Source: a virus
IMG/VR virus record: IMGVR_UViG_3300008110_000079
Location: 1-50,411 of that record
DNA: 50,411 bases
Reading direction: 5' to 3' (one strand)
How positions within the stretch are numbered: the stretch's first letter is position 1; each line of letters begins with the position of its first letter. A model generated the notes under the pieces. It saw nothing but the letters and a program-made list of their open reading frames with translations, searched no databases and had not been told where the DNA came from. Of this stretch, positions 4,325-32,098 are shown piece by piece. A program made the translations under genes and the position numbers.

Positions 4325-4353
4325 TTGCATATATAACTCAATAGGTCTATAAT
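4325..4353 (+). promoter_or_regulatory. Strong sigma70-type (early) promoter
   Basis: TTGCAT at 4325-4330 and a perfect TATAAT at 4348-4353 are separated by 17 bases. The predicted start, near 4360, falls just before the riboswitch-like leader. Confidence 0.85.
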
Positions 4354-4359
4354 GACCTT

Positions 4360-4412
4360 ACGTTCATCCCTTTGGGACGGAAGTAAGCCGACTCGGAACG
4401 GATCGTTCATCT
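4360..4412 (+). promoter_or_regulatory. Glutamine-riboswitch-like leader (glnA / Downstream-peptide class)
   Basis: The leader begins at the predicted transcription start. CGTTC at 4361-4365 can pair with GAACG at 4396-4400 (P1). TCCC-TTT-GGGA at 4367-4377 forms a P2 hairpin, followed by the conserved-looking CGGAAGTA at 4378-4385 and a short CCG/CGG helix. This order matches my memory of the glnA and Downstream-peptide RNAs, which bind L-glutamine. A second copy of CGTTCATC at 4404-4411, just before the start codon, can pair with the same GAACG strand (GAACG-GAT-CGTTC), giving an alternative hairpin and thus a plausible switch. The match is from memory and not from a covariance search. Confidence 0.65.
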
Positions 4413-4568
4413 ATGGAAACACTTTTGTTAACTTGTTTACAGACACAATTTATGATTGCGCGTGTGGATAGACACCCAAATATCACTCCTAAAATTAGGA
4501 ATGATATTATTTGGGAAATTAAACAAGTAACAAAAAAAGGTTGTTTCATAGACGCAAAGGTTGACTGA
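4413..4568 (+). CDS. Short peptide downstream of riboswitch-like leader, 51 residues
   Basis: The frame encodes 51 residues starting METLLLTCLQTQFMIARVDR and ending KKGCFIDAKVD. I recognise the pattern LLLTCLQTQF...ITPKIRNDIIWEIKQV...KGCFIDAK as recurring in marine cyanophages, so the gene is very probably real. It lacks a clear ribosome site, and the alternative hairpin of the leader ends only 4 bases before the ATG. Downstream-peptide RNAs are named for preceding such short peptides. Its function is unknown; regulation by glutamine status is inferred from the leader. The ATG at 4352 inside the promoter is not used. Confidence 0.75.
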   Translation: METLLLTCLQTQFMIARVDRHPNITPKIRNDIIWEIKQVTKKGCFIDAKVD

Positions 4569-4608
4569 AGGAACGCTCTTTAACTTAAACAACTAAGGAG
4601 AAAACCTA

Positions 4609-4746
4609 ATGTCTAAAGTCGTATATCGTGGTGTTGAATATGACACCCAAAAACGTTTAGAGTATCAACAACAAATGATGCAACAACCCCAACAATACAA
4701 CGAAACCTATCGTGGTGTTAAGTTTGTAAAGGAGGGACATAAATGA
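4609..4746 (+). CDS. Small YRG-motif protein (DUF4278-like), 45 residues
   Basis: A good AAGGAG site lies 8 bases before the ATG. The 45 residues contain two copies of a YRGV motif: VVYRGVEYDTQ near residue 5 and ETYRGVKFVKEG near residue 34, separated by a Gln/Met-rich stretch. The YRGxxY motif is what I associate with DUF4278, a cyanobacterial small-protein family. It overlaps the next gene by 4 bases. Function unknown. Confidence 0.7.
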   Translation: MSKVVYRGVEYDTQKRLEYQQQMMQQPQQYNETYRGVKFVKEGHK

Positions 4747-4844
4747 ATACTTACTTCGTTCGTTACCTTAAAAGAAAAGCAAAGAAGGAGCAACTCCTTC
4801 ATAACGCACAACTAAATATGGCAAAGCAACCACAAGTTGCTTGA
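4743..4844 (+). CDS. Very small basic protein, 33 residues
   Basis: The frame has a strong AAAGGAGGG site before its ATG and overlaps the previous stop as ATGA. The product starts MNTYFVRYLKRKAKKEQLLH and is amphipathic and strongly basic. It is the last gene before the terminator at 4848. The good ribosome site and coupling support translation; the function is unknown. Confidence 0.6.
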   Translation: MNTYFVRYLKRKAKKEQLLHNAQLNMAKQPQVA

Positions 4845-4847
4845 AGT

Positions 4848-4875
4848 AAAGGAGGGTTGATCCCCTCCTTTTTTT
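4848..4875 (+). terminator. Rho-independent terminator of the small-gene unit
   Basis: AAAGGAGGG at 4848-4856 pairs perfectly with CCCTCCTTT at 4863-4871 around a 6-base loop and runs into a T-tract. Confidence 0.9.
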
Positions 4876-4885
4876 ATGCTATGAT
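4857..4885 (+). promoter_or_regulatory. Possible sigma70-type promoter overlapping the terminator
   Basis: TTGATC at 4857-4862 lies in the terminator loop and TATGAT at 4880-4885 follows after 17 bases. It would restart transcription for the acidic small gene and thyX. Confidence 0.5.
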
Positions 4886-30854: not shown

Positions 30855-30925
30855 GCGGGTGTGGTGTAGAGGTAACATCTGAGCCTTCCAAGCTCCAGTC
30901 ACGGGTTCGATCCCCGTCACCCGCT
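30855..30925 (+). tRNA. tRNA-Gly (anticodon TCC)
   Basis: Acceptor GCGGGTG at 30855-30861 pairs with CACCCGC at 30918-30924. The anticodon loop is CTTCCAA, with a T-arm of ACGGG-TTCGATC-CCCGT. The top pair of the anticodon stem is a mismatch (T-C). CCA is not encoded. It reads GGA/GGG codons; GGA is frequent in this AT-rich genome. Confidence 0.92.
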
Positions 30926-32024: not shown

Positions 32025-32098
32025 GCCTCTGTAGCTCAGTTGGATAGAGCAGGGCTTTTGTAAAGCTCAGGTCGCAAGTTCAAGTCTTGTCGGGGGCT
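32025..32098 (+). tRNA. tRNA-Thr (anticodon TGT)
   Basis: Acceptor GCCTCTG pairs with CGGGGGC, with two G-T wobbles. The D-arm GCTC/GAGC, anticodon arm GGGCT-TTTGTAA-AGCTC and T-arm GCAAG-TTCAAGT-CTTGT are complete. CCA is not encoded. It reads ACA codons. Confidence 0.9.

Follow-up and report, generated by a model that had tools for sequence, protein, structure and literature searches.

Riboswitches are usually viewed as untranslated leaders placed before a gene. The glutamine-I riboswitch (glnA, Rfam RF01739) has a P1 helix CGUUC/GAACG, a P2 hairpin, a CG(G/C)A junction, a loop E formed by AGUA and GAA, and a staple (PMC6698751, PMC5393176). In the crystal structures of glutamine-I and glutamine-II, a long-range pair closes the pocket (G23:C60 and C19:G41; PMC6698751, PMC5393176). 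Glutamine-II (Downstream-peptide, RF01704), a pseudoknot without P3, precedes small DUF4278 proteins in picocyanobacteria, and cyanobacterial glutamine riboswitches control DUF4278 genes as ON switches (PMC6316151). Tandem glutamine riboswitches are also known: 157 glutamine doublets have been catalogued, with each unit taken as complete (PMC9481103). In phages, Rfam-annotated glnA elements have been reported for S-CREM1 and Melnitz; the accessible parts of these reports describe neither an interleaved fold nor nested genes (PMC9964418, PMC9004378). A literature search, which was thin on subscription journals, returned no account of interleaved aptamers that share a P3 or of genes inside an aptamer.

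Here we analysed a virus record of 50,411 bases (the window, that is, the whole stretch of DNA) from a T4-like cyanophage. An earlier sequence-only reading had pointed to a glutamine-riboswitch-like RNA lying over a 51-residue peptide gene. The observation was borne out and its interpretation was partly supported: the RNA exists and is conserved, but it differs in form from the earlier description and extends further. On the sequence and covariation evidence given below, the RNA at ≈ 4360–4576 is almost certainly an interleaved double glutamine-I aptamer with a gene nested within it (Table 1). The same window holds psbD at 77–1138 (identified by sequence) and, near the glutamine RNA, a gene for S-adenosylmethionine decarboxylase. 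Two tRNA genes are found at 30855–30925 and 32025–32098 (Rfam).

Positions 4359–4404 scored 34.3 bits with the Rfam glnA model, against a cut-off of 35 (E = 1.1e-5 in a search of 601 bases). The claim of a glnA-type RNA in this phage was upheld, with a score that formally gives no match above threshold, by 0.7 bit. The shortfall comes from the model, which has no means of representing interleaving, that is, a 165-base insertion and a strand exchange. The match covered the 5' half only: the loop-E strand AGUA was present and its GAA partner was absent. The Rfam alignment has gaps where loop E should close; glutamine-I has GAAG before GAACG, whereas the window has only ...CUCGGAACG. The 3' half lies beyond the 51-codon open reading frame, at 4553–4576 (CGCAA..GACUGAAGGAACGC), and encodes the last residues and the stop codon of the peptide. 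Thus, the last codons of the gene, GAC GCA AAG GTT GAC TGA, are at the same time the aptamer 3' half. Scanning viral contigs by pattern separated the aptamers cleanly into two classes, 69 with canonical ...GAAGGAACG ends and 48 with window-type ...GCCGAC(T/G)CGGAACG ends. In the window-type class, a second and likewise incomplete unit, CGUUCA(P2b)CGCAA..GCCGACUGAAGGAACG, follows either directly or after a reading frame that ends in the unit; the exceptions were a contig end or a unit that the search pattern narrowly missed. In the window, this reading frame is the 51-residue gene, and its two ends pair with each other (UCUAUG with CAUAGA).

In this fold, as covariation shows, strands are swapped between the members of a tandem aptamer pair. 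An outer P1 (CGUUC1/GAACG2) and a capped inner P1' (GAACG1/CGUUC2) share a single P3. The outer three-way junction (P1, P2a, loop E and P3) is assembled from the 5' half of unit 1 and the 3' half of unit 2, and the two strands of its loop E are linked only via the shared P3. The inner junction (P1' with its GAU cap, and P2b) is circularly permuted and sits on the opposite end of the same P3. It has no loop E, and its P1' cap is three to five bases long in most elements. The structural features of RF01739 were found in the window: P1 CGUUC/GAACG, P2, J2/3 CGGA, loop E AGUA/GAA and the staple G4380:C4576. The pocket bases given in PMC6698751 were found in both junctions. Compared with glutamine-I, the locus thus has two interleaved copies with a common P3, a permuted inner copy without loop E, and P2 loops that may hold genes. 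The sequence-only reading had also invoked the Downstream-peptide aptamer. This likeness amounted to a weak match (17.6 bits versus a cut-off of 33), and the window RNA has the P3 that glutamine-II lacks; the CGCA junction and C:G staple of glutamine-II do recur in the inner junction and, for roughly half of the elements, in the outer junction too. Like the catalogued doublets, the element has two glutamine units in a row, but here the strands are exchanged; some of those doublets may be of the interleaved kind. Five phage contigs (L010, L034, L039, L050 and L090) bore true tandems of canonical glutamine-I aptamers, in which both loop E motifs are complete.

Table 1. Positions of the predicted RNA elements and genes at the glutamine RNA locus (window coordinates)
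Feature	Position	Strand	Basis
Putative sigma-70-type promoter, TTGCAT / 17-base spacer / TATAAT (4348–4353)	4325–4353	+	read from sequence
Outer P1 5' strand CGUUC1, partner 4571–4575	4361–4365	+	sequence, covariation
P2a hairpin UCCC-UUU-GGGA; holds a gene of ~66 residues in some relatives	4367–4377	+	
J2/3 CGGA (4378–4381) with staple base G4380 (partner C4576), then loop-E strand AGUA (4382–4385)	4378–4385	+	outer staple 193/193
Shared P3 5' strand AGCCGACU, partner 4559–4566	4386–4393	+	covariation
Inner P1': GAACG1 / GAU cap / CGUUC2; inner staple base G4401, partner C4555	4396–4408	+	sequence, covariation
P2b 5' strand UCUAUG including start codon of the 51-residue gene, partner 4547–4552	4410–4415	+	
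Cargo gene in P2b loop, 51-residue protein (phrog_504); stop UGA 4566–4568 overlaps loop E	4413–4568	+	
P2b 3' strand CAUAGA, within cargo coding sequence	4547–4552	+	
Inner J2/3 CGCA with inner staple base C4555	4553–4556	+	complementary 186/193
Shared P3 3' strand GGUUGACU; encodes C-terminus of the 51-residue peptide	4559–4566	+	covariation
Loop-E strand GAA (4567–4569), outer P1 3' strand GAACG2 (4571–4575), outer staple base C4576	4567–4576	+	
Candidate expression platform: CUCUUUA (4576–4582) pairs with UAAGGAG (4594–4600), masking Shine-Dalgarno	4576–4600	+	
Downstream gene, 45-residue DUF4278-like protein (phrog_5049)	4609–4746	+	
Gene for 33-residue basic peptide, overlapping stop of DUF4278-like gene; weak phrog_545	4743–4844	+	
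Intrinsic terminator of the operon	4848–4878	+	

The pairings were counted in 193 distinct cyanophage elements, the set behind the staple, P3 and cargo counts. The outer staple, formed by the unit 1 junction base and the base after the unit 2 GAACG, was complementary in 193 of 193 (97 G:C and 96 C:G). If each half is folded alone, the staple is complementary in 99 and 97 of the 193 only. The inner staple was complementary in 186. In cargo-free elements, the outer staple was retained in 49 of 49 (35 G:C and 14 C:G); hence, coding does not explain its conservation. Conservation from coding alone was excluded on the same grounds, since empty elements keep the same covarying RNA. The shared P3 came in 26 different strand pairs (0/10000 shuffles), some of them replaced in full (GGAAG/CUUCC and AGUCG/CGACU, for example), and its position 8 was seen as U-A, G-C or A-U. 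On an alignment of 36 sequences from which the genes had been cut out, the interleaved structure paired 99.4% of the cells, and in 11 pairs both partners had changed (0/500 shuffles). Failure of the tandem structure fell exactly on its two staples, which hold in only 61.1% of the sequences. The P1 helices are nearly invariant; two compensatory double changes (CGUUU1 with AAACG2 in L172, and AAACG1 with CGUUU2 in L139) fit only the interleaved pairing. Some findings weigh on the other side. On the cargo tree, staple switches amounted to nine changes, only two of them on well-supported branches. The outer halves are separated by 165 to 200 bases in cargo-bearing elements, and ligand-free thermodynamic folding favours neither the outer P1 nor P3.

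These data bear on two other folds. An ordinary tandem doublet, with two complete glutamine aptamers in a row and a gene between them, would agree with the likeness of either half by itself to RF01739 (seen for unit 1 in L314/L315 and for unit 2 in L316/L319/L323), and true tandem canonical aptamers do exist in phages (five in our set). However, unit 1 has no loop-E GAA and unit 2 no AGUA, the within-unit staples fail in about half of the elements (on the alignment they hold in only 61%), the P3 strands covary between the units, and the two P1 double changes fit the interleaved pairing only. Independent tandem aptamers were ruled out by the staple counts and the alignment, and the probability that we leave to a tandem doublet is minimal. 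The sequence-only reading had instead placed a single aptamer at 4359–4404, the P1 strand of which would alternate with a hairpin before the start codon of the 51-residue gene. Every sequence feature that it named does exist: the 8-base direct repeat CGTTCATC is present at both 4361 and 4404, GAACG at 4396–4400 is able to pair with either copy, the hairpin with 4404–4408 stops 4 bases ahead of the ATG at 4413, and the reading frame at 4413–4568 codes for 51 amino acids. Such a form may exist briefly during transcription. Still, the half-aptamer is without a loop-E partner and, in the window, without a staple (G4380 would face G4401), and the 193/193 staple to the far half is left unexplained. 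The forced choice between two folds falls away, as the conserved structure pairs 4396–4400 with 4404–4408 and 4361–4365 with 4571–4575. The anatomy also differs: the gene sits inside the RNA rather than under it, and the proposed span of 4325–4568 leaves out the 3' half (4547–4576) and the downstream gene. We consider the single-aptamer model very improbable. A variant aptamer with an altered binding core that had lost P3 and loop E was dropped after the second half was found behind the gene.

Genes nested in the P2 loops of the interleaved RNA (cargo) occupied both loops in 35 of the 193 elements; a further 98 had cargo only in P2b and 11 only in P2a, and 49 were empty. The RNA stood directly ahead of the start codon in 42 of 42 distinct inspected relatives of the 51-residue reading frame. 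Across the divergent types checked, P2b genes fall into phrog_504; among the P2a genes are phrog_6471 and one family that matches no PHROG. The idea that P2a holds a group I intron or another kind of insertion was rejected, as Rfam found nothing and the insert is an open reading frame. P2b genes start 3 to 6 bases past CGUUCA and stop exactly 2 bases ahead of GAACG2 in 125 of 133. The gene ends, start-codon region included, pair with each other far above the level of swapped ends (0/2000 shuffles for P2b and likewise for P2a). The cargo is under protein-level selection (76% synonymous changes versus 21% expected), and its conserved C-terminus, DAKAD/DAND, is dictated by the RNA. AlphaFold modelled the 51-residue protein as two helices (pLDDT 79, pTM 0.54), which gave no hint of function. 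The phrog_504 P2b proteins have two invariant cysteines and an N-terminal hydrophobic stretch in common, and from these sequences are perhaps membrane or periplasmic peptides. A broad phrog_504 alignment had no stretch sufficiently conserved for a search.

Upstream, the sequence-only reading had assumed a strong promoter that starts the RNA exactly at the fold. There is a perfect −10 element, but "strong" is too much, since only three of six bases fit in the −35 element (TTGCAT, 4325–4330). The −10 element predicts a start at ≈ 4360, near the fold, though a promoter scan did not list the promoter. TATAAT sits in the loop of an inverted repeat, AGGTC-TATAAT-GACCT (4343–4358), and the same holds ahead of most relatives. 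From phage to phage, the two arms change in concert (AGGTC/GACCT, TAGGGG/CCCCTA and TGTGT/ACACA), and arms of at least 4 were present in 126/177 elements versus 262/885 shuffles. The repeat may be an operator, a cruciform or a hairpin of the leader.

Downstream, it is the DUF4278-like gene at 4609 that has a Shine-Dalgarno sequence adjacent to the switch. The product encoded behind the RNA is a small protein of the YRGVxY...YRG type, akin to DUF4278, or else a short helical peptide. The window protein scored 19.1 with DUF4278 (PF14105), below the gathering cut-off of 25.3 (E = 0.0017); two phage homologues in the same position passed, with 30.3 and 26.0. The 33-residue basic peptide that follows (MNTYFVRYLKRKAKKEQLLHNAQLNMAKQPQVA) is a phrog_545-like helix that in other phages is fused to the DUF4278-like part, so that the two genes resemble a two-domain protein split in two. 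C4576 is both the staple base and the first base of CUCUUUA; hence, closure of the pocket competes with masking of the Shine-Dalgarno sequence. In a folding calculation in which C4576 was withheld, the Shine-Dalgarno region went from closed to partly open (unpaired 0.4–0.6 at best), and in the interleaved fold the cargo start codon remained closed. Glutamine-I sites of hosts have GCACC..GGUGC stems over GGAG that also start at the staple base (read by eye). In elements with a C:G staple, e.g. L202–L218 and L223, another leader follows GAACGG (GG..CC hairpins, ACUACUUUAGGAG). Since these platforms differ, one ON mechanism may not cover all elements, and the C:G-staple leaders may confer control in the direction opposite to that of the window class.

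The best overall explanation, which we regard as likely, is an interleaved, glutamine-sensing double aptamer that controls the nested and downstream genes. Judged by the conserved pocket, glutamine is probably its ligand. In a tentative scheme, glutamine would bind one or both pockets and stabilise the fold. The bound fold would mask the cargo start codon in the P2b helix and would take C4576 from the stem that masks the Shine-Dalgarno sequence, thereby turning on the DUF4278-like gene; when glutamine is scarce, the cargo gene would be translated instead. We put the chances of this toggle (DUF4278-like gene on and cargo off with glutamine, the reverse without it) somewhat below even. With similar reserve, the two interlocked pockets might act as a gene selector by which T4-like cyanophages choose between two sets of small proteins to match the nitrogen status of the host.

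The Shine-Dalgarno stem would likewise be opened by a ribosome at the stop codon of the cargo gene, and expression may be ribosome-coupled instead of toggled. Alternatively, the fold could be as described and glutamine sensing lost, with a changed ligand or a purely structural role as an mRNA stabiliser or translational coupling element. The inner junction without loop E and the 7 of 193 inner staples that are not complementary would agree with this. We think it unlikely: the outer junction retains the bases that touch glutamine in both crystal structures (C1, G2, G22, C58, G59 and the staple), and in other phages the same DUF4278 gene lies behind single canonical aptamers. More difficult to dismiss is that the nested genes are passengers, the loops of the switch being tolerated insertion sites and cargo expression unregulated by the switch. 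Cargo has been gained and lost independently in P2a and P2b, and empty elements retain the same RNA. Homing-endonuclease genes, reading frames in peripheral loops of group I introns, offer a parallel; here, however, the reading frame is carried by a metabolite sensor, one helix of which includes the start codon. Moreover, start codons lie 3 to 6 bases past CGUUCA, the start-codon region pairs with the gene end beyond chance, and stops occur at one exact place. We regard the passenger reading as doubtful, yet worth keeping in mind. In the preferred reading, protein genes lie inside sensor helices, and two aptamers interlocked via a shared stem provide a structural route to coupling two binding sites.

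The gene-in-RNA arrangement was found in 13 of 13 cultured or complete T4-like cyanophages that were selected solely through remote similarity of their proteins to the cargo (Syn9, Syn19, Syn30, S-TIM5, S-IOM18, S-CAM3, S-CAM22, S-H9-2, S-SSM7, P-RSM4, P-RSM6, P-TIM40 and metaG-MbCM1). It was also found in P-HM1, P-SSM3, P-SSM4, P-SSM7, S-SRM01, DSL-LC02 and DSL-LC03, and empty elements occurred in P-TIM68, S-CREM1 and Bellamy. The podovirus P-GSP1 had a weak cargo match with no RNA around it. The element is thus present in classical cultured cyanophages (Syn9 gp196/gp197, P-HM1, P-SSM4 and S-TIM5), where annotation calls the small genes no more than hypothetical or unknown, and is therefore directly testable. 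The sequence-only reading had considered glutamine sensing by a phage notable in itself, yet glutamine riboswitches in phages had already been reported (PMC9964418, PMC9004378). What the present sequences suggest is that cyanophages read host glutamine and act via DUF4278, a family under glutamine control in cyanobacteria.

A scan of host genomes gave RF01739 matches in 72 of 201. None of the 30 loci fetched from host picocyanobacteria was interleaved-like, and the 18 parsable aptamers were all ordinary single ones; a host origin of the interleaved form was rejected on this basis. The sole genome-contig match for the element was in the Prochlorococcus single-cell genome AG-418-C09 (L202; QCLS01000003.1). 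Judged by reading, this contig has genes of phage type (for a class I ribonucleotide reductase beta subunit and for 2OG-oxygenase-like proteins), which suggests that it came from an infecting phage in the assembly. Rfam annotation finds half of such elements, with scores near or below the cut-off. The published 99-base glnA annotation of S-CREM1 (164232–164330) corresponds to a cargo-free interleaved element.
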